Source: Candidatus Fimenecus excrementavium (lineage in GTDB: Bacteria; Bacillota; Clostridia; Oscillospirales; Acutalibacteraceae). From it: a stretch of DNA of 64,000 nt. This document shows, piece by piece, positions 46,720 through 57,689 of this stretch (position 1 is its first letter; every line of letters begins with the position of its first letter). The notes beneath the pieces were generated by a model. The model did not search any database. It had not been told where the DNA came from and saw nothing but the letters and a program-made list of their open reading frames with translations. The position numbers were made by a program, and so were the translations under genes. The stretch spans positions 1 to 64,000 of the forward strand of contig DVGI01000033.1 of the NCBI GenBank assembly GCA_018712805.1, in the 5' to 3' direction.

Positions 46720-48684
46720 TTAAGTTTCCGCTGTTTCCGAAAACGCTTCCAATACGGCTGCCCCTTTGCGCACAAACGCGGCAAACTGCGAAAGCGGAAC
46801 GGCTATGCGGTGAAATCCCGAAGAATACACTTTGCCCGTGGCGGTATGCACCCACTCGCCCGCCGGCAAATACACGTCTTTTTCGGTCTGACCGGCCGTG
46901 ACCACCGGCGCAAACAAAATATCGTCACCGAACATATACTGTTCGTCGAGCGTCCAGCAAACCGGGTCGTCCGGGAAATCAAAAAACATCGGGCGCATCA
47001 CCGGCCAGCCTTTTTCGGAAGCAATATGCATATGTTTTTCAATGTATGGCCGCAGGCGTTCGCGCAGAAGCACCAAAGATTTTAAAATTTTGAAATTCTC
47101 TTCTCCAAAGCTCCAAAGTTCGTTGGGGTCGCCCGACGGCTCAAAGCGCATGTTTGATTCTATATGGCGTTCGCGGTTGCCGTGGACGCGCATCACCGGG
47201 CAGAACACACCGTATTGAAACCAGCGCACAATGAGTTCTCGGAACGCTTCACTTGTTGTATCGCCGCCGTAAAAGCCGCCGATGTCCGTGTTCCACCAAA
47301 CAATGCCGCAAAGCGACATGTGCAGTCCCGAACGAACCTGACACGCGAGACTTTCAAAGGTGGAGGGAATGTCGCCCGACCACACCAGCGCACCGAATTT
47401 TTGACTGCCGAGATAGGCGCACCGCGTGAGGGTAATAATATCGTCTTTGCCCATCGCGCGGTAGCCGTCATACGCCATTTGCACGTGGCAGTAAGGATAG
47501 AGCAGCGCAACCTCGTCGCCGCGCCCGGCGTAATAGAGCAGATTGTCAAAATGAACCGGGTAAAGCTCCGGCTCGCTTTCGTCAAGCCAAAGGGAATCCA
47601 CGCCCTTGTCTAAATAATTTTCGCGCAATTTCCCGAACACAAATTCACGCGTTTCGGGGTTGGTCGAGTCCACAAGCGCCTGCCAGCCGTAAAACCGGAA
47701 CACCCGGTCGCTGCCGCGCGTTGTGCGCACAAGCAAGTTGCGGTCACGCATCATTTCATAGTTTTCACTGTTTTCGTTTACAGTCGGCCAGACCGACACC
47801 ACAAGCTTTGTGCCCAGTTTGTGGAGTTCCTCGGTCATCGCGGGCACGTCCGGCCAATACTGCGGGTCAAAGCGGTAGTCGCCCTGCTCGGTCCAGTGGA
47901 AATAATCCGCCACAATCGCCGCAAGCGGTATGTTTTCGCGCTTGTAACGCCGCGCGACTTCCAAAAGCTGTTCCTGGGTTTCATAGCGCAGGCGGCTTTG
48001 CCAAAAGCCGGTTGCCCAATGGGGCATTTCCGGCGCGTGGCCGGTCAAATCTGCCAATGTTTCCGCGACTCCTTTCGGGCTCCCGCCGATTACGACATAA
48101 TCCACCCGGCGGGTGCAGTCGCTTGTCCACCGTGTGTGGTTATTGGAAAACGCAACCGTCCCCGTGGAAGGGTTGTTCCACAAAAATCCGTAGCCGAGCG
48201 AAGAATAAACAAACGGCACGGCGCATTGCGTGTTGAGGTTTCTCAGGTCAAACGAACAGCCTTTCAAATCCCAGCGGCGGCGTTGGTCGTGGCCGAGCCC
48301 GAAGAAATGCTCGTTTTCCGTCGCGCAAAAGGTCACGCGCGCCCGCCAAAGTCCGCTTTGCAGGCTTTCATATTCCCGAATCCCGTTTTCAAACGCATAT
48401 TCCGGCAGTTCCTCTAAAATCTTTTCCCCGTCACGGAAGAAAAACACTTTGCCGTCGTGGTACATTCTTAATGTCAAACACCCGACCGTCATTTCTACGT
48501 ATCTCTCGGTCTGCGCAATTTCCGCGGGTGCATTTTGGGGCAGCAGTGTAAAATTCTCTTCATCTGCACGCCCTGCAGGAAACGCGGTAAAACGAATCGC
48601 ATTTTTGCCGCAAGGTGCAATGCGCACAAGTTCCCCGGCGTGGGTGAAAAAGATTTTGTTTTCTTGCATTTTCGTATTTTTCAT
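46720..48684 (-). CDS. Glycoside hydrolase family 31 (alpha-glucosidase/alpha-xylosidase)
   Basis: A 654-residue cytoplasmic retaining alpha-glycosidase. FFGLGHDQRRRWDLKG and PHWATGFWQSRLRYETQEQLLEVARRYKRENIPL are family 31 blocks. The catalytic nucleophile Asp is in DSLWLDESEPELY (near 370), and the acid/base region WSGDIPSTFESL follows (near 435). RPYIEKHMHIASEKGWPVMRPMFFDFPDD is also standard. No signal peptide. Whether the substrate is xyloglucan- or starch-derived cannot be decided. ATG follows GGAGG. Confidence 0.93.
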   Translation of the reverse strand: MKNTKMQENKIFFTHAGELVRIAPCGKNAIRFTAFPAGRADEENFTLLPQNAPAEIAQTERYVEMTVGCLTLRMYHDGKVFFFRDGEKILEELPEYAFENGIREYESLQSGLWRARVTFCATENEHFFGLGHDQRRRWDLKGCSFDLRNLNTQCAVPFVYSSLGYGFLWNNPSTGTVAFSNNHTRWTSDCTRRVDYVVIGGSPKGVAETLADLTGHAPEMPHWATGFWQSRLRYETQEQLLEVARRYKRENIPLAAIVADYFHWTEQGDYRFDPQYWPDVPAMTEELHKLGTKLVVSVWPTVNENSENYEMMRDRNLLVRTTRGSDRVFRFYGWQALVDSTNPETREFVFGKLRENYLDKGVDSLWLDESEPELYPVHFDNLLYYAGRGDEVALLYPYCHVQMAYDGYRAMGKDDIITLTRCAYLGSQKFGALVWSGDIPSTFESLACQVRSGLHMSLCGIVWWNTDIGGFYGGDTTSEAFRELIVRWFQYGVFCPVMRVHGNRERHIESNMRFEPSGDPNELWSFGEENFKILKSLVLLRERLRPYIEKHMHIASEKGWPVMRPMFFDFPDDPVCWTLDEQYMFGDDILFAPVVTAGQTEKDVYLPAGEWVHTATGKVYSSGFHRIAVPLSQFAAFVRKGAAVLEAFSETAET

Positions 48685-48720
48685 AAACGTCCTCCGAAAA
48701 TACGGATATACATTTTAAAA

Positions 48721-49257
48721 TCAAACGGGAAAGCCGTAAGTGCCCGTAACCGGGTCTAAAAACAACCCGATGTGCGGCGGGAACGCGGTGAACAGCAGGT
48801 AACAAAGCAGCAAAACCGCAAGCAAAATCCCGCCCGCAAGCCGTTTGCGCGCCGTCGGCGTGCCGCTTTGCGCATACAGTTTTACAAAGAATGCAACAAG
48901 CACCCCGACCACAAACGTCAAAATGTCAATCGGTGCAAGGTTTTTACCGAGCACACCGGAATAGGTGTAAAACAAAACGACAATCGTTGCCGTGCCTGCA
49001 AAAAGCCCCCAAAAAACCGACCACAATAAATTCGGTTTCTTTTTCCCGAAAATCCATTCCAGCACCCAAAAAAGCAGCGCCGGGAAAAACAACAGTTTTA
49101 AGTGCTCCCACGTGCTTTCATTGACCGCGGCAAAAATCCCGACAAGGCGGTTTTCCCCGCTCCAATCAAAAAAGAAATGAGACAGCGTGCCGAGCACCAG
49201 CACAAAGCCGATGCCGAAATAGGTTTGAAAGTTTAGGTTTTCTCTGATTTTCTGCAT
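48721..49257 (-). CDS. DUF6512-like multi-pass membrane protein
   Basis: A 178-residue protein with about five membrane helices. The N-terminal GTLSHFFFDWSGENRLVGIFAAVNESTWEHLKLLFFPAL resembles the DUF6512 family, named from memory. Function unknown. The apparent ribosome binding site AAAGGG is unusually close to the ATG, while a stronger GGAGGG lies upstream beyond a small GGCGG/CCGCC hairpin that could bring it nearer. It precedes the glycosidase gene by 36 bases. Confidence 0.75.
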   Translation of the reverse strand: MQKIRENLNFQTYFGIGFVLVLGTLSHFFFDWSGENRLVGIFAAVNESTWEHLKLLFFPALLFWVLEWIFGKKKPNLLWSVFWGLFAGTATIVVLFYTYSGVLGKNLAPIDILTFVVGVLVAFFVKLYAQSGTPTARKRLAGGILLAVLLLCYLLFTAFPPHIGLFLDPVTGTYGFPV

Positions 49258-49415
49258 ACCCTTTCGGCGGTCAAAGCCGCCCTCCCCTCTTTTATTTAAG
49301 GCTTATATAAGGATATGCAAAAAAGCAAGGGATAAGACGCTAAAAAAGCTTTTTCTTGCGTTCATTGTAGCATAGGCGCTTTGCGCCGTCAACCGCACCG
49401 AAAAAGGATAAAAAA

Positions 49416-49437
49416 GCGCGCAGGTTTCCCCGCGCGC
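49416..49437 (-). terminator. Terminator of the broken small gene
   Basis: Stem GCGCGC/GCGCGC with an AGGTTTCCCC-type loop, and six T on the minus strand (49415-49410). Confidence 0.75.
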
Positions 49438-49449
49438 CCGCTTATTATT

Positions 49450-49736
49450 TTACGCTGTTTCTTCTTCGTCTTTGCAAAAACAAGCTTGGAACAAACCCAG
49501 CTTATTATACAAAATGGTTTCCAGAGACGCAATCTAGCGGACAACCGCTTCCACAGACCGATTGACCTCGAGCATTTCTTCCGCCGATTTCGAGCAGGCG
49601 ACGATTTTTAGAATCTTTTCGCCCTCCGCGTTTAAAATGTGTGAAAGCGCGGTTTGCTCCAACGCCACACTGGTTACAATGTCCGTGATCGCCTGAAAAC
49701 GCTGCCCGTTCCGGACGCAATGACCGGCATACCCAT
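49450..49736 (-). pseudogene. Small clostridial protein gene with frameshift and internal TAG
   Basis: A start at ATG 49736 after GGAGGGG reads MGMPVIASGTG. After a change of frame the sequence continues QRFQAITDIVTSVALEQTAL, then SHILNAEGEKILKIVACSKS and EEMLEVNRSVEAVVR, reaches TAG at 49536-49534, and in the same frame goes on IASLETILYNKLGLFQACFC to a TAA at 49452-49450. The whole reads like one conserved small protein of sporulating Clostridia (pattern SVALEQxALxHILNAEGEKI), so two lesions seem to have accumulated. A strong terminator follows. Sequencing error at the frameshift cannot be excluded. Confidence 0.65.
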
Positions 49737-49820
49737 AATTTTCCCCTCCATGGCAAAGTGTCCGGCTTTTTGTCGGCTGTTTTATTCTATGCCGAAAAAG
49801 AAAAAAATCGTGACAAAAAG

Positions 49821-49847
49821 AAAAACCGGCACGGTTTCCCGTGCCGG
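49821..49847 (-). terminator. Terminator of the transketolase-aminotransferase operon
   Basis: A perfect 9-bp stem CCGGCACGG/CCGTGCCGG with a TTTC loop, then TTTTTCTTTTT on the minus strand. Confidence 0.9.
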
Positions 49848-49859
49848 AAAAAATATATT

Positions 49860-50666
49860 TTATTTCGCCAAGGCGGCAACTTCGAGCATGTAAGTACCGA
49901 TTTGTCCGCCGAATTCAGGCGCACCGTCCATAATCAGGTGGCCTTGTTTTACGGCTTCGAGCATATCGTCCGTGCCGAGCAAGATACCCAGCGCGCTGTC
50001 GAGCGAGTCAAAACGCAAGGTAAAGAACGGCATGGCGCGTTTGTATTCGCCGCGGCCCGCTCTCGACTTGCCCGCCTTAATACGCAGGTAAGCGGAGACC
50101 TGCGGATAGCCGTTGACCGCCCAAGCGTAAACGCGGTCGGGGCTCTTGCTGGTCCAGTCGTGGATATCCTCGTGTCCCATTTTGTTCAGCTGGCTGATGC
50201 CGCTGGACAAAAGATAGAAGAAACACTTCACCATAAGCTCTTTGGTCTCGTCGTCTTTCGGCGGCTCTGTCGCGCTCAGCAGCGACGACATTTTGAGAAG
50301 CGTCATCAAGAACGCTTTGAACGCACCGAAGTTCTTAAGCACCCCGTGCATTTTCGGCAAAGTCGCGGGGCTGATTTTACCTTTGAAAAAGGCATTCATC
50401 GCTTCAACGCTCTTAAACTCCAGCTCCACGTGGGGATTGGGGTCCACCTTATTCAGGTGCACAAGCCACTCGTCGCCGTTGACGACATAGTGCATGCCGA
50501 CCTTTCCGCCTTCGGCGTCCGGGTCGTCCGCCGTGACCTGGATGATTGCGTGCACTTTCGCAAACTGTTTTTTCAGCGACGGCACATCGTTTGCAATCAC
50601 CTTGACCAGCGGCAAGGCAGCGTTGAAGAAGATTTTATTGGAATATAATTCTTCTTTTGTATGCAA
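49860..50666 (-). CDS. SCP2-like lipid-binding-fold protein, copy 1
   Basis: About 268 residues from TTG 50666 (AAGGAG 10 bases upstream; a GTG lies too near that site). The sequence shows two similar halves: ELEFKSVEAMNAFFKGKISP with later MHG, and LRFDSLDSALGILLGTDDML with IMDG. This phrasing (F-S-x-E/D-A, then G) is what I know from SCP2 sterol-carrier folds. The same double arrangement is present in the gene at the other end of the operon, so the two are paralogues. No catalytic motif. It could bind a lipid or hydrophobic intermediate. Confidence 0.65.
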   Translation of the reverse strand: MHTKEELYSNKIFFNAALPLVKVIANDVPSLKKQFAKVHAIIQVTADDPDAEGGKVGMHYVVNGDEWLVHLNKVDPNPHVELEFKSVEAMNAFFKGKISPATLPKMHGVLKNFGAFKAFLMTLLKMSSLLSATEPPKDDETKELMVKCFFYLLSSGISQLNKMGHEDIHDWTSKSPDRVYAWAVNGYPQVSAYLRIKAGKSRAGRGEYKRAMPFFTLRFDSLDSALGILLGTDDMLEAVKQGHLIMDGAPEFGGQIGTYMLEVAALAK

Positions 50667-50740
50667 ATTTTTCACGCTCCTTGAAGCAGGATTTTCGGCG
50701 TTTTCAACCGGGCAACGCCGCGCCCGCAAGCGCGGAGCGC

Positions 50741-51751
50741 TTAAACATCGTCGTCCCAGTTGTCGTCCTCTTCGAAGTCTTTGTGCATGACTTCGCGGAC
50801 CGCTTCGATAATGCCGTTTGCGTCAATGCCGACGATAGACATAATGTCTTCGTGCAAACCGATGGGCGCGAATTTGTCGGGGTGACCGAGCTTTTTGAAC
50901 GCGCAGCCTTTGCCGGATTCCACGACCACTTCCGCGACAGCGGAGCCAAGACCGCCAAGCACACTGTGGTCTTCAACGGTGATAATGCGGCGGGTTTCCT
51001 GAACCGCTTTGAGGATTGCTTCTTTATCAATCGGTTTGATGGTGTGCATATTGAGCACGCGGACTTTTAAGCCGTCGGCGCTCTCTAAGAATTTCGCCGC
51101 TTCGCGCGCCTGGAAGACGCAGGAGCCGCAGGCGATAACGGTAATGTCGGTACCGGGATGGACTTCCACCGCCTTGCCGACTTCAAAGCCGTAATCTTCG
51201 TTATCATAAAGCACACGGTCGAAACCGCGGTTGATGCGGATATAATACGGACCGAAGTTTTCATAAGCCGCGCGCACCGCGTTTGCGGTTTCGTAACCGT
51301 CCGCCGGGCAAATCACGGTGAGGTTCGGCATAGCGCGAGTGACCGCCAAATCCACAATCGCGTGGTGGGTGGAGCCCGCCTGACCGAACGAGGTACCGGA
51401 ATGGGTCGCGATGATTTTCGCGTTGACATTCTGATAGCAAATGTCGGTGTGCAGCTGATCTGCCGCGCGAAGCGAAGCGAATACGGAGAAGGTGGAAGCA
51501 AACGGCACAAGGCCCGCTCTCGCCATACCGGCCGCAACGCCGATCATGTTCTGTTCGGCAATACCGACGTTGAACACACGCTCGGGATAAGCGTTTGTAA
51601 AGTCGGTCAGTTTGGTGGAAGTTGCAAGGTCAGCGGTGACTGCAACAATCTCTTTATGTTCCCCGGCAAGCTGCGCGAGGGTTTTGCCGTAAATTTCCGA
51701 AGTGGAAAGTTCCGGCGTTTCGATAACATTGTAAACAAATCCTCCGGCCAT
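50741..51751 (-). CDS. Transketolase, C-terminal subunit
   Basis: A 336-residue pyrimidine-binding plus C-terminal half of transketolase. EIVAVTADLATSTKLTDFTNAYPERVFNVGIAEQNMIGVAAGMA contains the catalytic Glu that activates TPP, and GLVPFASTFSVFASLRAADQLHTDICY with HSGTSFGQAGSTHH are standard. It pairs with the N-terminal subunit encoded immediately upstream (TAATG overlap). Split transketolases in bacteria include dedicated enzymes of secondary or sugar catabolic pathways, so this is not necessarily the pentose phosphate enzyme. Confidence 0.93.
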   Translation of the reverse strand: MAGGFVYNVIETPELSTSEIYGKTLAQLAGEHKEIVAVTADLATSTKLTDFTNAYPERVFNVGIAEQNMIGVAAGMARAGLVPFASTFSVFASLRAADQLHTDICYQNVNAKIIATHSGTSFGQAGSTHHAIVDLAVTRAMPNLTVICPADGYETANAVRAAYENFGPYYIRINRGFDRVLYDNEDYGFEVGKAVEVHPGTDITVIACGSCVFQAREAAKFLESADGLKVRVLNMHTIKPIDKEAILKAVQETRRIITVEDHSVLGGLGSAVAEVVVESGKGCAFKKLGHPDKFAPIGLHEDIMSIVGIDANGIIEAVREVMHKDFEEDDNWDDDV

Positions 51752-52629
51752 TATTCAAACTCCTTTCCGCAGCGTGCAATGCGTTCTGCGCTGTATTCGT
51801 CCAAATCTTTGGCGGCAACCTTTGCCATTTCTTCATCAATGGCGCCGTAGTGCCACTTGTAGTTGCCCGCGGTCAGTTTGATGCCGACGCCTTTAATTGT
51901 ATCCGCCACGATCACGGACGGCTGGTCTTTGCAGGCGTGCGCCGCGTCAATCGCTTTGCAAAGGTCAACGATGTCGTTGCCGTTACAGGTGATTGTGTTA
52001 AAGCCGAACGCGACGAATTTGTCCGCCAGGGGTTCCAGCTTCATAACGTCTTCGGTGTTGCCGTCAATCATGCAGTGGTTGCGGTCAACAATCGTGATGC
52101 AGTTGGTAAGGTTATATTGACGAATGGTCATTAAACCTTCCCAGTTGGAGCCTTCGTCAAGCTCGCCGTCGCCGGTGACAACATAGGTGGTGTAATCTTT
52201 GCCGAGCACGCGCGCCGCGATGGCGGTACCGGCAGCAATCGGAATGCCGTGACCGAGAGAACCGGTGGAGGCATCGACACCGACAACCTTGTTGGAATCC
52301 AAATGGATACCCATTTTGGAGTTGGTCAGGTTGAAGGTCTTGAGCTGTTCCATATCATTCCAGCCGTAGTCGCACAACACCGGCGCATACGCGATGCCCG
52401 CGTGACCCTTACTGAGAATGAAGCGGTCGCGGTCTTCCCACTTTGGGTCTTCTTTTTTCAGGTTCAAATACCGGTGATACATAACGGTAAGAATGTCCAT
52501 AACGCTCATACCGCCGCCGATATGGCCGCTGCCCGCCCACACCGTGGTTTGCAGACAAAGGTGACGCAGTTCGTTGGCCTTTTTCTCAAGAGCCAACCAT
52601 TCGTCCTTGGTTAAAGGTGCTTTTTGCAT
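51751..52629 (-). CDS. Transketolase, N-terminal subunit
   Basis: A 292-residue TPP pyrophosphate-binding half. GSGHIGGGMSVMDIL at about 34-46, SKGHAGIAYAP at 73-83, and the TPP motif GDGELDEGSNWEG (153-165) with Asn184 in IVDRN are clear. Together with the C-terminal subunit it forms one transketolase that transfers two-carbon units between sugars. The gene is 50 bases downstream of the aminotransferase in the same operon. Confidence 0.93.
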   Translation of the reverse strand: MQKAPLTKDEWLALEKKANELRHLCLQTTVWAGSGHIGGGMSVMDILTVMYHRYLNLKKEDPKWEDRDRFILSKGHAGIAYAPVLCDYGWNDMEQLKTFNLTNSKMGIHLDSNKVVGVDASTGSLGHGIPIAAGTAIAARVLGKDYTTYVVTGDGELDEGSNWEGLMTIRQYNLTNCITIVDRNHCMIDGNTEDVMKLEPLADKFVAFGFNTITCNGNDIVDLCKAIDAAHACKDQPSVIVADTIKGVGIKLTAGNYKWHYGAIDEEMAKVAAKDLDEYSAERIARCGKEFE

Positions 52630-52679
52630 GATGTTCCTCCCTGGTTTAAAATTTATCGATAGCGGTTCCCCGCCGAAGT

Positions 52680-53948
52680 TCAGCCTTTGATTTCCGGATG
52701 ACGTTTTGCAACGACCGAGAACGCGTCTTCCGCAATGTCGATTGCAAGCTTGATGTCGTCATCGGTAACCGCCGCATTCATGAAGTGGTTGTGGTGCGAA
52801 GCCAAGAACAGCCCGCGGCTGACGCATTCGGCAATCCACTCCTGATGCAGCATTAAGCTGTCGTCATTGGCAATGCGCAAATAGAACAGCGCCGGTTCAC
52901 CGGTAACCACCAAATCGAAGCCGTGTTCTTTACCTGCCGCAACGAAACCGTCTGTCAGCTTCTTGCCTTTTTCACGGAACATTTTGGGGGTGTCAAGCTT
53001 CTTCATCTTGTTAATGCAGGCAATACAAGCTGCAAACGGAACAGCGCTCATCCAGTAAGAACCCGTATAAGTTACGCCGGAAACGGTCGCTTTCATATGT
53101 TCGCCGCCGCAAAGCGCAGACATGTTGTAGCCGTTGGCAAGCGCCTTGCAGAAGCAGATAAGGTCGGCTTTGATGCCGTAATAGTGGTCGGAGCCCTGCA
53201 AATCCAGACGGAAGCCGGTGCGCACGTCGTCGAAAATAAGGACCATGCCCTTTTCGTCGCAGAATTTGCGGACCGCCTGCCAATATTCTTTGGAGGCGAC
53301 TTCGTTGTCTTTGAAGTTGCCGTGGTCATACGGCTGGGCGATAAGGCCGGCAACGTCGCCGTCGCAGGCATTGTAAGCGTCTTCGAGCGCCTGGAGGTTA
53401 AACCACGGCACAATCACGTTGTTGGAAACGTCTTCCGGCAAAATACCGGGGTAGTCGACTTTCTGTGCCCACTGGAAGTCGCCGTGATAATAGCCCTTCA
53501 AGAAAAACATTTTCTTTTTATGGGTGTGGGCGCGCGCCGTCATAACCGCAAGGGTCGTTGTGTCGGAGCCGTTCTTTGCAAAGAATGCCCAGTCCGCGGA
53601 AGCGACGGTGTCCACCAGGTTTTCGGCACATTCAACCATGACCTTGGAAGGCGAGGTCGTGCAGTTGCCGAGCTTTAACTGTTTCATCGCCGCGGCGTCG
53701 ACGTCGGGGTCGTTGTAACCGAGCACGTTCGGACCGTAAGCGCACATGAAGTCAAGATATTTATTGCCGTCCACGTCCCAGAAGTAAGTGCCCTGGGCTT
53801 TTTCAGAGAAGAACGGCCATTTGGAAACGGGTACCCAAAGACCCTCCGCCGGGCCGAGGTGACCGTAGATGCCGGACGGGATAACCTTAACGGCTCTGTC
53901 AAAATAGGCGCGGCTTTTATCGTGTTTATATTCCGGATATTTACTCAT
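52680..53948 (-). CDS. Class III aminotransferase, glutamate-1-semialdehyde aminomutase-like
   Basis: A 422-residue PLP enzyme. The Schiff-base lysine is Lys268 in CFCKALANGYNMSAL. FDDVRTGFR (239-247) replaces the more usual FDEV with Asp at the second acidic position, and NGSDTTTLAVM (126 onward) matches the NGSEA block of HemL-like enzymes with Asp for Glu. The N-terminus VIPSGIYGHLGPAEG is also HemL-like. The substrate is unknown; the operon partners suggest transamination of a sugar or a transketolase product. ATG follows GGGAGG. Confidence 0.88.
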   Translation of the reverse strand: MSKYPEYKHDKSRAYFDRAVKVIPSGIYGHLGPAEGLWVPVSKWPFFSEKAQGTYFWDVDGNKYLDFMCAYGPNVLGYNDPDVDAAAMKQLKLGNCTTSPSKVMVECAENLVDTVASADWAFFAKNGSDTTTLAVMTARAHTHKKKMFFLKGYYHGDFQWAQKVDYPGILPEDVSNNVIVPWFNLQALEDAYNACDGDVAGLIAQPYDHGNFKDNEVASKEYWQAVRKFCDEKGMVLIFDDVRTGFRLDLQGSDHYYGIKADLICFCKALANGYNMSALCGGEHMKATVSGVTYTGSYWMSAVPFAACIACINKMKKLDTPKMFREKGKKLTDGFVAAGKEHGFDLVVTGEPALFYLRIANDDSLMLHQEWIAECVSRGLFLASHHNHFMNAAVTDDDIKLAIDIAEDAFSVVAKRHPEIKG

Positions 53949-53963
53949 TGTAGCGGACCTCCC

Positions 53964-54725
53964 TTATGCTAAATACAGCGCAACTCTGTCAAGAATACGG
54001 TTCATGTTATCCACCATGGAAAGCATGCCGCGGATTTCGACCGTGCCTCTGCCGATGCATTCCATTGCATTGATTCTGCCGTTGAACAAATCGTTTGCAA
54101 GTTCCAGCGAATCAAACTGCATAATCGCGCGCGGTTTCTCGGGCGCCTGTTTAATCGCAACCAAGTGATGGTCTTTCACGCGCAGCGTCGCGGCGGGGCC
54201 GTCTTTAATCAAGAAAGCGATGTCGCCGTCAAGCATATAAGAGGCGCTTGCCTGACCGATCTTGTCCTGATTGCCGACCTGCGCGAGCGCAACCGCAATC
54301 GTGTAGAACGTAAGTTTCGTGGAAAGCGCGAAAAATTCCGGGTCTTTAAGCGCTTCCTCGGTCGGGCGCATCAATTCCGTCAAGCGGTCGGTCAGCGCAA
54401 CAAAGGTCTTTAAAAGGAAGCCGATTTTGGTAAAGCCTTTTACCGGAATCGGCGTAACCGTGCCGTCAATCATTCCGTTGAATTTGTCGCAGGAGGCAAA
54501 CGGAATGAGAATGTCGTGCTGCTGTCGCCCGTCCTCCATGCGGCAGCCTTTGGACGTGAATTTGATGGTCGCGCAAGGGCCACCCTTCACATCAAAGCAA
54601 ATGGAAACCGGCTTTTTGAGACCACTGATGAGTTCCTTCGCCTTGCTGTCGAGTTCACAAAGATTTTCGAGCGTGCCCAAAACCGCATACAGGTTTATGT
54701 AGGCGAGAGTTCTTGAATCGGTCAA
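53964..54725 (-). CDS. SCP2-like lipid-binding-fold protein, copy 2
   Basis: About 253 residues from TTG 54725, seven bases after GAAGGAGG; an ATG frame back to 54806 overlaps the promoter and is rejected. Like 49860 it has two similar halves: ILIPFASCDKFNGMIDGTVT and IMQFDSLELANDLFNGRINA followed by GTVEIRG. No catalytic residues or membrane segment. First gene of the operon. Pairing of two paralogues around a transketolase and aminotransferase suggests carriage of a lipid-like substrate, but this is inference. Confidence 0.65.
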   Translation of the reverse strand: MTDSRTLAYINLYAVLGTLENLCELDSKAKELISGLKKPVSICFDVKGGPCATIKFTSKGCRMEDGRQQHDILIPFASCDKFNGMIDGTVTPIPVKGFTKIGFLLKTFVALTDRLTELMRPTEEALKDPEFFALSTKLTFYTIAVALAQVGNQDKIGQASASYMLDGDIAFLIKDGPAATLRVKDHHLVAIKQAPEKPRAIMQFDSLELANDLFNGRINAMECIGRGTVEIRGMLSMVDNMNRILDRVALYLA

Positions 54726-54760
54726 TGTAATTCCTCCTTCGCGGTATAAATAACCGAAAA

Positions 54761-54816
54761 TGCATAGCTTATGCAAACTATAACAGCATGATACCAAATT
54801 TTTCATAAAAAGTCAA
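54761..54816 (-). promoter_or_regulatory. Promoter of the SCP2-aminotransferase-transketolase operon and adjacent inverted repeat
   Basis: On the minus strand TTGACT (54816-54811), 17 bp, TATCAT (54793-54788). The transcript should start near 54781. The perfect inverted repeat TGCATA-GCT-TATGCA (54761-54775) lies just downstream of that point and is a candidate operator. Confidence 0.65.
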
Positions 54817-54901
54817 CGAAAATAAACAACTGTCGAGGAAATTTTTAATGAAAAATCACGCAGATTTTTCCAAAAAAAAGGGTGCTTTTTGAAAGCGTTT
54901 G

Positions 54902-54910
54902 TGATATAAT
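54902..54910 (+). promoter_or_regulatory. Extended -10 promoter of secA
   Basis: TGATATAAT is an extended -10 element. No good -35 box stands at the proper distance. It lies 52 bases before the secA start. Confidence 0.5.
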
Positions 54911-54962
54911 TGTAAATGTATATCGGCGTTTTTCAGAAAACGCAGGAAAGGATCGACCCACC

Positions 54963-57689
54963 ATGTCTTTGATTAAGAAAATTTTCGGGGATTATTCTTC
55001 CCGGGAAGTCAAGCGCGTAATGCCTTTGCAAAAGCAGGTGCTCGCGCTCGACGAAGAATATCAGAAGCTGACCGACGAAGAGCTGAAAGCCAAAACGCCG
55101 GAGTTTAAAGAACGCCTGCAAAACGGCGAAACGTTGGACGATATTTTGCCCGAGGCGTTTGCGGCCTGCCGCGAGGCGGCTTCGCGTGTTTTGAAAATGA
55201 AACACTTCCCCGTCCAGATTATCGGCGGCATCATTCTTCACCAAGGAAGAATTGCCGAAATGAAAACCGGTGAAGGCAAAACGCTCGTCGCGACGTTACC
55301 CGCCTACCTCAACGCACTTGCCGGAAAAGGCGTGCACATTGTCACCGTCAACGACTATCTGGCGCGCCGTGACTCGGAGTGGATGGGCAAACTTTACCGC
55401 TTCATGGGCCTTTCCGTCGGTCTTATCGTGCACGAATGCACCAATGAGGAGCGCAAGGCGGCTTACGCGGCGGACATCACTTACGGCACCAACAACGAAA
55501 TGGGCTTTGACTATCTTCGTGACAACATGGTGCTTTACGCCGAACAGCGCGTCCAGCGCGGTCACAGCTTTGCGATTGTCGACGAAGTGGACTCGATTTT
55601 GATTGATGAAGCGAGAACACCGCTTATCATTTCCGGCGCGGGCGACAAATCCACCGACCTTTACAAAATTGCGGACACGTTTGCAAAGTCCCTGAAAAAA
55701 ATCACGGTAAAAGAGCTCGACACCAAATTCAACGCGGAAGATTTGGTTGACGCCGACGGCGATTATGTCGTGGACGAAAAAGCCAAGACCGCGACGCTGA
55801 CCAAGCAGGGTATTGCTAAAGCCGAAAAATTCTTTAATATTGATAACCTGATGGATGCGGAAAACCTCACCATTCAGCACCACATCGACCAGGCGATTCG
55901 CGCCATCGGCGTTATGAAGCGCGACGTGGACTATGTTGTCAAAGACGGTGAAGTGCTGATTGTCGACGAGTTCACCGGTCGTATCATGCTCGGCCGCCGT
56001 TACAGCGAAGGTCTTCACCAGGCGATTGAAGCGAAAGAAGGCGTCAAGGTTGAGCGCGAATCCAAAACGCTCGCGACCATCACGTTCCAGAACTATTTCC
56101 GTCTTTACGACAAACTTTCCGGTATGACCGGTACGGCGATGACGGAAAGCGCCGAATTCCAGGAAATTTATTCTTTGGACGTCGTTGCGATTCCGACCAA
56201 CAAGCCGATGATTCGTGAAGACGAGCCGGACGTGCTTTATAAAACCGAAAAAGCGAAATTCAACGCGATTATCGAACAGATTTTAGCGTGCCACGAAAAA
56301 GGGCAGCCCGTTTTGGTCGGCACCATCAGCATTGAAAAGAGTGAAGCACTTTCAAAAGCACTTAAAAAACGCGGGATTAAGCACGAAGTGCTCAACGCGA
56401 AATATCACGAAAAAGAAGCCGAAATCATTGCGCAGGCCGGTCAGTACGGCGCGGTGACCATCGCCACGAACATGGCGGGCCGCGGTACCGATATTATTCT
56501 CGGCGGCAACCCGGAATTCATGGCGAAATCCGAAATGCGCAAAAAAGGCTACGCCGAAGAGATGATTGCCGAAGCGACCGGCTTTGCGGAAACCGACAAC
56601 GAGGAAATCCTTGAAGCGCGTAAAACCTTCCGGGAGCTGGAAGACAAGCACAAAGCCGCACTGGCGGACGAAGCCGAAAAAGTGCGCGCGGCAGGCGGTC
56701 TTTATATCATCGGCACCGAGCGCCACGAATCCAGACGAATCGACAACCAGCTGCGCGGCCGTTCCGGTCGTCAGGGCGACCCCGGTCACAGCCGGTTCTA
56801 TCTTTCCGCGGAAGACGATTTGCTTCGTCTGTTCGCCGGCGACCGCTTCTATACCATTCTCGACACGTTCAAGTCGGTCGGAGACATGCCGATTGAAGCG
56901 AAAATGCTTTCCAACATGATTGAAAGCGCGCAGAAGAAAGTCGAAGCGAACAACTTTGCAACCCGCCGCAACGTCTTGAAATTCGACGACGTTATGAACA
57001 AACAGCGTGAAGTCATTTACGGTCAGCGCAACCAGGTGCTCGACGGCGTCGACCTCCACGCAACCATTCAGAAGATGATTCACGACTACTTCACGGTTCA
57101 GGTCGAGTTCTATTGCCCGACCTCTCTGCCGAAAGAAGAGTGGAACATTAAGGGCATGCTCGCGAAACTCGGCTGGGTGCTCGGCGGCGAAGGCGCAGAC
57201 GGCTTAAAGACCCAGCAGGATTTCATCGACCTGTTCTTAAAGCGCGCCGAAAAGAAATATGAAGCGCAAAAAGAAAAATACGGCGAAGCGATTATGGAAG
57301 AGCTCGAGCGCAAGATTCTTTTGCAGAACGTAGACCTGCGCTGGATGGACCACATCGACGCGATGGAAGAGCTCAAGCGCGGCATTTACCTGCGTTCCTA
57401 CGGTCAGCAGGACCCGGTCGTCGCGTTCCGCATGGAAAGCTTCGATATGTTTGACGAAATGACCGCCGCCATTCAGGAGGGCACAGTCACCGGCATTCTC
57501 ACCGTACAGCTTCGCACCAACGAAGAAGTCAAACGTGAACAGCAGGCGAAAATCACCGGCACTTCCGGCGGTTCGGACGGCAGCGAGAAAAAGCAGCCGG
57601 TCCGCAAGGCGAAAAAGCCCGGCCGGAACGATCCCTGCCCCTGCGGCAGCGGCAAAAAGTATAAACATTGCTGCGGCAAAGACGAATAA
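54963..57689 (+). CDS. secA: Protein translocase subunit SecA
   Basis: SecA, 908 residues, the ATPase that pushes unfolded preproteins through SecYEG. Walker A is [24 protein letters not shown] with Walker B in [39 protein letters not shown] is a conserved helicase-type motif and RSGRQGDPG follows. The C-terminus keeps the zinc-binding SEC-C tail [14 protein letters not shown] that interacts with SecB or membranes. ATG 54963 gives the usual MSLIKKIFG start; the longer frame from 54882 is in the promoter. Confidence 0.97.

Follow-up and report, generated by a model that had tools for sequence, protein, structure and literature searches.

The 64,000-nucleotide stretch of Candidatus Fimenecus excrementavium DNA analysed here (contig DVGI01000033.1, positions 1 to 64,000; below, the window) comes from a genome of 1.85 Mb that is 97% complete and displays on its minus strand an operon of five genes which may act on long-chain, sphingoid-like lipids. 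In the order of transcription these are SCPa, encoding a tandem SCP2-like protein; AT, a class III aminotransferase; TKN and TKC, the N- and C-terminal halves of a split transketolase; and SCPb, a second SCP2-like protein (Table 1). With gaps of 15, 50, -1 and 74 bases, a Shine-Dalgarno-like sequence before each gene, a promoter-like site and a terminator, the five genes look like one transcription unit, and a 19-residue segment with a hydropathy above 1.34 was found in none of the five proteins. All five genes are present in the order described by the initial annotation, although the starts it gave for SCPa (54806) and SCPb are too far upstream: we moved them to the TTG codons at 54725 and 50666, which are most likely the starts, because many relatives begin there and Shine-Dalgarno sequences stand upstream. 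With the SCPa start corrected, the promoter-like site, which matches the consensus at 10 of 12 positions, sits some 60 bases before the first gene and no longer overlaps it. Since the scan returned 11 such sites where 5.6 were expected, the promoter match is weak by itself, while the terminator annotated along with it is clear. An Rfam scan of positions 48000-57000 gave no match above the gathering scores.

Table 1. Genes and signals of the operon, in order of transcription
Feature	Position	Strand	Basis
Promoter-like site, TTGACT-17-TATCAT, TG before second hexamer	54788..54816	-	Consensus scan only
SCPa, tandem SCP2-like, 253 aa, TTG start	53964..54725	-	PF02036 in relatives; internal repeat; conserved start and Shine-Dalgarno sequence
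AT, FumI-type class III aminotransferase, 422 aa, pyridoxal phosphate (PLP) lysine K268	52680..53948	-	PF00202; FumI 6hbs
TKN, N-terminal half of split transketolase, 292 aa	51751..52629	-	PF00456, 160 bits; 6yak
TKC, C-terminal half of split transketolase, 336 aa	50741..51751	-	PF02779, PF02780; 6yaj; residue table
SCPb, second SCP2-like protein, 268 aa, TTG start	49860..50666	-	Profile match to SCPa
Intrinsic terminator closing the operon, 9-pair stem (8 GC), T run	49826..49847	-	Stem-loop and T run

Conservation of the operon and its two modules

The search for a conserved neighbourhood in other Clostridia, proposed with the initial annotation, recovered the complete five-gene order in 68 of 80 named loci, a set that holds the best 80 of at least 570 confirmed candidates and was picked by AT similarity alone. 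Of the remaining 12 loci, seven run into the end of their sequence and another five (L114, L115, L116, L119 and L122) display SCPa and AT only, without transketolase genes within the stretch covered. Hosts of the operon include Eubacterium coprostanoligenes ATCC 51222 (L110), Clostridium sp. CAG:217 (L091) and CAG:678 (L086), and Candidatus Fimenecus (L069). The recurrence of the same set in the same arrangement is far beyond chance. SCPa adjoins AT in 79/80 of the named loci (the exception, L133, is cut inside AT), in 48/49 loci of a second set (exception L052, with a distant AT) and in 8/9 of a third (exception the distant G785).

Among 147 relatives, own genome counted, AT was detected in 55 at a threshold of 1e-40, one of which, G141 (34% identity), is a distant enzyme. 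Within the genus, 37 of 39 genomes have AT, and the two without it are 86% and 68% complete. SCPb is found in 52 of the 147 genomes, all 52 of which have AT, and AT occurs without SCPb in G123, G128 and G141. In L040, L041, L042 and L044 a distance of 0.5 to 1.4 kb separates AT from TKN, and in G081, G138 and G060 SCPa-AT and TKN-TKC-SCPb lie on different contigs and yet co-occur, so that the operon, as far as gene neighbourhood tells, is made of two modules, SCPa-AT and TKN-TKC-SCPb. Clustering of the open frames over 92 loci, with clusters not individually annotated, revealed no conserved sixth gene; the largest extra clusters, in 20/92 loci (transporter-like by our own reading) and 17/92 (SecA), look like lineage synteny. 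Single relatives have a PIG-L type deacetylase (L041 10011-10751) or a HAD-type phosphatase (L042 291-1100) directly after SCPb.

These observations bear on the plainest explanation of the locus, namely that a redundant pentose phosphate transketolase and a HemL have become neighbours by accident. The domains are indeed individually common, but the order kept in the named loci, the presence of AT in every SCPb genome and the co-occurrence that extends to three genomes with the halves on different contigs already contradict it, and we regard it as extremely improbable. Redundancy in the pentose phosphate pathway was rejected on the further ground that the genome has a separate housekeeping split transketolase. 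The operon transketolase is therefore not the only one of its genome, nor is AT an ordinary HemL in a haem cluster, two objections that the initial annotation had itself raised: the genome has two other class III aminotransferases, and no haem genes were found among the ten other window proteins scanned. The initial suggestion of a dedicated pathway, conserved in relatives, in which a transaminase works together with a split transketolase on a probably lipophilic substrate, is supported.

Kinship of the operon proteins

Among solved proteins AT is closest to FumI (6hbs, 305 bits, E 6e-90), the best GSAM reaching 159 bits (E 2e-45), and the AT family profile ranks them likewise (FumI 4e-112, GSAM 7e-62). 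In an alignment of 32 AT rows, which left out G785, FumI has 81 of the 112 invariant columns and GSAM 48. K268 and D240, which we take to be the PLP lysine and aspartate by role, are invariant across these rows and also found in FumI. AT matches PF00202 and stays below the cut-offs of the GSAM models TIGR00713 (183.8 of 527.3 bits) and PRK00062 (198.8 of 398); its top NCBIfam model is the guanitoxin transaminase GntE, narrowly before the GSAM models and all far below their cut-offs, and no FumI model is among the 25 NCBIfam models listed for it. The label HemL-like hence fails in its narrow sense, and a HemL/GSAM identity was rejected on these cut-offs and on the FumI and GSAM scores. FumI takes the amino group from C2 of hydrolysed fumonisin B1 and hands it to pyruvate, and its substrate, going by the name in a figure legend, is a 2-amino-3-ol with a methyl C1 (excerpts of PMC2933618). 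Because the closest solved relative acts on this C2 amine, a sphinganine-like substrate was considered for AT.

TKN and TKC are both closest, among solved proteins, to the split transketolase of Carboxydothermus (6yak, 6yaj). They display the thiamine diphosphate and pyrimidine domains of a split transketolase, all over the Pfam cut-off (PF00456, PF02779 and PF02780), with the catalytic His and Glu positions in place; the NCBIfam transketolase equivalog cut-offs suit the full-length enzyme and cannot judge halves. Substrate residues were compared, in human numbering, over 17 SCPb-linked pairs, the pair of G785 and the housekeeping copy. We take R318, D424, S345, H416 and R474 to be the sugar-phosphate recognition set, and the full set of a pentose phosphate transketolase is not found in the operon enzymes: D424 is replaced by A or S in 17/17 SCPb-linked C halves and R318 by S, A or T in 16/17, with L151 alone keeping it, while S345, H416 and R474 are kept in 17/17, as is E366. 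The N halves of the same 17 pairs all keep H37, H77, H110 and H258. Window TKC itself has S at the R318 position and A at that of D424 and keeps the catalytic Glu; in the genome's housekeeping split transketolase both R318 and D424 are present and S345 is replaced by A. H110, presumably the histidine that contacts the C1 hydroxyl of the donor, is kept in 19/19 N halves compared (17 SCPb-linked, G785 and the housekeeping copy). A gene beside the L151 transketolase that resembles an alanine dehydrogenase was rejected as such and is a transhydrogenase subunit.

Human D424 presumably corresponds to D469 of the E. coli transketolase. The D469T variant of the latter has a hydrophobic surface and accepts propanal, while wild-type transketolases prefer phosphorylated substrates and typically need a C1 hydroxyl (excerpts of PMC10787763). 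By analogy, the operon transketolases look as if they were the natural counterpart of such a change, and the retained R474 and S345 would fit a sugar phosphate as second substrate.

The description of SCPa and SCPb as SCP2-like paralogues holds for SCPa at the family level, where 12 of the 19 members match PF02036 at E<=0.1, the best of them at 2.7e-7; the SCPa of the window scores 19.3 bits, under the gathering cut-off of 21.3. SCPb barely matches Pfam (1/14 members at the same threshold, E 0.0018, and no match for the window protein), but by profile comparison it is a paralogue of SCPa (96.6%, E 5e-10). SCPa looks like a tandem repeat, its N and C halves matching each other at 95.8% in profile comparison; the same comparison of halves gave no internal repeat in SCPb (0.1%). 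Searches of solved structures with the SCPa and SCPb profiles returned best E values of 0.35 and 0.16, which is chance level, and lipid binding by the two proteins is our assumption.

Serine palmitoyltransferase as alternative partner of the aminotransferase

Serine palmitoyltransferase (SPT) uses serine and acyl-CoA. Of 394 genomes sampled from the order, 24 have AT (threshold 1e-85) and 53 have SPT (threshold 1e-100). The 24 AT genomes fall into 14 with SCPb, taken as the marker of the TK module (in G750, G811 and G828 the check covered SCPb and not the transketolase genes), nine with SPT, in 9/9 of which SCPb is absent, and one, G785, with a distant AT (47%) and a distant TK pair and with neither SPT nor SCPb; none of the 24 combines SPT with SCPb. 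In other families of the order the SCPa-AT genomes found are all without SCPb, except G138. SPT thus accompanies AT in 9/10 AT genomes without SCPb, compared to 44/370 genomes without AT (Fisher p 1e-7, uncorrected for kinship). No SPT was found at 1e-30 in the 19 own-family TK-type genomes among 31 hand-picked genomes, the window genome (G000) being one of the 19.

SPT and a KdsR-like reductase directly adjoin SCPa-AT in four genomes, G573 and G586 of one genus and G724 and G748 of another, in two gene orders. The neighbouring alpha-oxoamine synthase scores 436 bits with SPT 3a2b and 262 with the best solved non-SPT enzyme; its best NCBIfam model is NF047600 with 536 of 640 bits, so the curated cut-off is not reached. 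For the short-chain reductase, of which two were scanned, the closest match is KdsR, with 228 and 218 of 400 bits. In the AT tree, where FumI and GSAM are long branches and the root is unsure, the TK-type ATs form one supported group (100/99), and the majority of the SPT-type ATs branch outside this group, in an unresolved position next to FumI. The AT of G770, a genome with SPT, is nested within the TK-type group, and for this reason AT seems to have swapped its partner more than once. The co-occurrence counts are more exposed to the objection that we are looking at family history than are the tree and the adjacency in two gene orders. As to the SPT loci themselves, a KdsR-like reductase stands beside SPT in 8 of the nine (L169-L172, L191-L195; family scan and BLAST, L172 by eye), a DAGK-type lipid kinase was seen at L195 and, by eye, at L193, and with SPT-like genes in 53/394 genomes sphingoid synthesis seems commoner in this clostridial order than we had expected.

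Altogether, the FumI kinship and the SPT association make a sphingoid-type amino alcohol with a long chain, and not a sugar, the likely AT substrate. The initial annotation had suggested an amino-sugar or a soluble amino-ketone pathway with a lipid partner. Split transketolases do serve sugar pathways, the phosphate site retains S345, H416 and R474, and G785 joins similar enzymes with a sugar-type symporter; but the amino sugar is at odds with the FumI kinship, with SPT beside SCPa-AT in related families, with the loss of D424 and R318 and with two dedicated SCP2-like proteins, and we consider such a pathway very unlikely. An amino-ketone with a lipophilic part, also proposed initially, is by contrast compatible with the sphingoid-like ketone discussed below. 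AT and the transketolase might also work on another amino lipid, either a 1-deoxy or modified long-chain base or a keto lipid, and give an undescribed membrane lipid. AT is superfluous for plain sphinganine in SPT genomes, SCP2-like proteins suit many lipids and the FumI substrate has a methyl C1 (excerpts of PMC2933618), but the constant H110 would favour a substrate hydroxylated at C1, and we hold this variant to be unlikely.

A possible transketolase route between fatty aldehydes and sphingoid bases

From the gene set, its conservation, the FumI kinship, the lost sugar-recognition residues, the association of AT with SPT and the alternation of SPT and SCPb we infer substrates, order of steps, lipid carriage and direction as follows. 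The operon would encode a route of two enzymes that links fatty aldehydes with sphingoid-type bases, a reading that we put forward as tentative and somewhat short of probable. The split transketolase would transfer a C2 ketol unit from a sugar phosphate to a long-chain aldehyde or back, and so yield or use a long-chain 1,3-dihydroxy-2-ketone, in effect a lipid with a ketose head, which the FumI-type AT would interconvert with a 2-amino-1,3-diol, that is a sphinganine-like base; SCPa and SCPb would carry the water-insoluble intermediates for both enzymes. Chemically, loss of the C2 amino group from a 2-amino-1,3-diol lipid would give a 1,3-dihydroxy-2-ketone, which is formally a transketolase donor; its cleavage between C2 and C3 would release a fatty aldehyde and a C2 unit, and the reverse would be synthesis. 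Coupled transketolase and transaminase have been used in vitro to produce 2-amino-1,3,4-butanetriol (excerpts of PMC5813273).

Several observations weigh against this reading. As to gene distribution, AT is missing from 44 of the 53 genomes in the order sample that have SPT; the alternation of SPT and SCPb is partly family history, because the own family hardly has SPT (G712 only); G138, counted as SCPb without SPT, is just 60% complete; and in G464 (L168; class sample, another order) SCPa-AT is present and neither SPT nor SCPb was found. As to the enzymes, the L151 transketolase keeps R318, all 17 C halves keep R474 and S345 of the phosphate site, and D-erythro sphinganine would require a C3 configuration opposite to that of D-threo donors. 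Such donors are the ones preferred by wild-type transketolases (excerpts of PMC10787763). Besides, SPT genomes can make sphinganine without AT, and since SPT suffices there, AT would remove the amino group from sphinganine, an argument for turnover. The SCPb of G138 is followed after about 60 bases by an aldehyde dehydrogenase (L150 5367-6749; closest NCBIfam model MdlD, below its cut-off), an MFS transporter comes directly after AT in the same genome (L050 5135-6367) and an alanine dehydrogenase, over its NCBIfam cut-off, lies 1.2 kb from SCPa on the other strand, three genes that would fit catabolism. Finally, the same transaminase-transketolase chemistry may serve a soluble substrate in G785. 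The cluster of this genome (L176 1057-9204) holds a distant FumI-like aminotransferase, a split transketolase pair, an alanine dehydrogenase and a sugar-type GPH symporter, the last two over their cut-offs, and an old-yellow-enzyme-like oxidoreductase; no SCP2-like gene was found near the AT/TK pair, and the cluster looks like a catabolic route of the same logic for a soluble amino compound.

The direction of the route is therefore the point on which the alternatives divide. Run in reverse, the same chemistry would be catabolic: sphingoid bases from diet, host or other bacteria would be deaminated by AT, with pyruvate converted to alanine, and the transketolase would split the ketone into a fatty aldehyde and a C2 unit for the pentose phosphate pool. 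In agreement with this, FumI is itself catabolic and uses pyruvate as acceptor (excerpts of PMC2933618). The G138 genes and the alanine dehydrogenase and symporter beside the TK pair of G785 go in the same direction, and in SPT genomes the simplest AT substrate is the sphinganine already present. On the other hand, the five operon genes include no transporter, hydrolase or regulator; the ceramidase family PF04734 is found in just 4/39 members of the genus, the own genome not among them, other ceramidase and sphingomyelinase families not having been sought; and the G138 aldehyde dehydrogenase, which at 1e-20 matches 29/147 relatives, matches none in the own genus, other aldehyde dehydrogenases not having been sought. 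An AT that is near-universal in the genus resembles a core trait, and its place beside SPT in four genomes would be futile unless for turnover. On balance we regard the catabolic direction as doubtful. Neither of the two enzymes sought turned out to be a companion of the operon: PF04734 matches 27/147 relatives (18 over the cut-off), 12 of these 27 being AT genomes compared to 55/147 overall, which is no clear link, and the G138-type aldehyde dehydrogenase was rejected as a general partner for want of a match in the genus.

We thus lean slightly towards SPT-independent synthesis, for which it also speaks that the TK module occupies the place held by SPT elsewhere. In this form, which we advance with a little more reserve than the route itself, gut Clostridia of the Eubacterium coprostanoligenes kind would have replaced SPT by a transketolase, which adds a C2 ketol unit to a fatty aldehyde before a transaminase introduces the amino group. 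The usual configuration of transketolase products is 3S, that of fumonisin 2S,3S and that of ordinary sphinganine 2S,3R, and the product may be an isomer other than ordinary sphinganine. A polyketide route to bacterial sphingolipids reportedly exists; the operon would, if this reading is true, add a further route to the sphingoid backbone beside SPT and polyketide, maybe one that carries the C3 stereochemistry of sugars.

Gut bacteria and their host exchange sphingoid bases, which serve as signals, and the usual mark of a bacterial producer is its SPT gene. Should the bacteria considered here make or break such bases by means of a transketolase, they would escape any count that relies on SPT. 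For biocatalysis, a naturally occurring transketolase that already copes with non-polar substrates would be of value. We know of no description of such a transaminase-transketolase sphingoid pathway, and the literature searched, which leaves most subscription papers outside and was screened mainly by title and opening lines of the abstract, yielded no paper that links transketolase with sphingoid bases in bacterial metabolism. Each enzyme family is already known; what would be new is their combination and the proposed carbon-carbon bond chemistry on a lipid.

Compared with known systems, AT has the class III aminotransferase family in common with GSAM/HemL, several NCBIfam models of which match it; however, it stays below every GSAM cut-off scanned and FumI is far closer. 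For the FumI system we know of no transketolase or SCP2-like partners. FumI of Sphingopyxis sp. MTA144 (PDB 6hbs, 6hbv), the closest solved relative at 39% identity, has the YGH, KN..D, D.R and HN positions in common with AT and targets the C2 amine of a sphinganine-like chain (excerpts of PMC2933618), although it is an enzyme of fumonisin catabolism while the substrate of the clostridial AT is a prediction. The Carboxydothermus hydrogenoformans split transketolase (6yaj, 6yak), the closest solved relative of TKC and TKN, keeps the equivalents of R318 and D424 that the operon enzymes have lost. The standard de novo route, SPT and 3-ketodihydrosphingosine reductase, accompanies the SCPa-AT pair in other families of the order, whereas in the 19 own-family TK-type genomes, the own genome included, SPT gave no match at 1e-30. 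The engineered transketolase-transaminase cascades for chiral amino alcohols are man-made and short-chain, but in them, as here proposed, a transketolase acts first and a transaminase then gives a product of the 2-amino-1,3-diol type (excerpts of PMC5813273).

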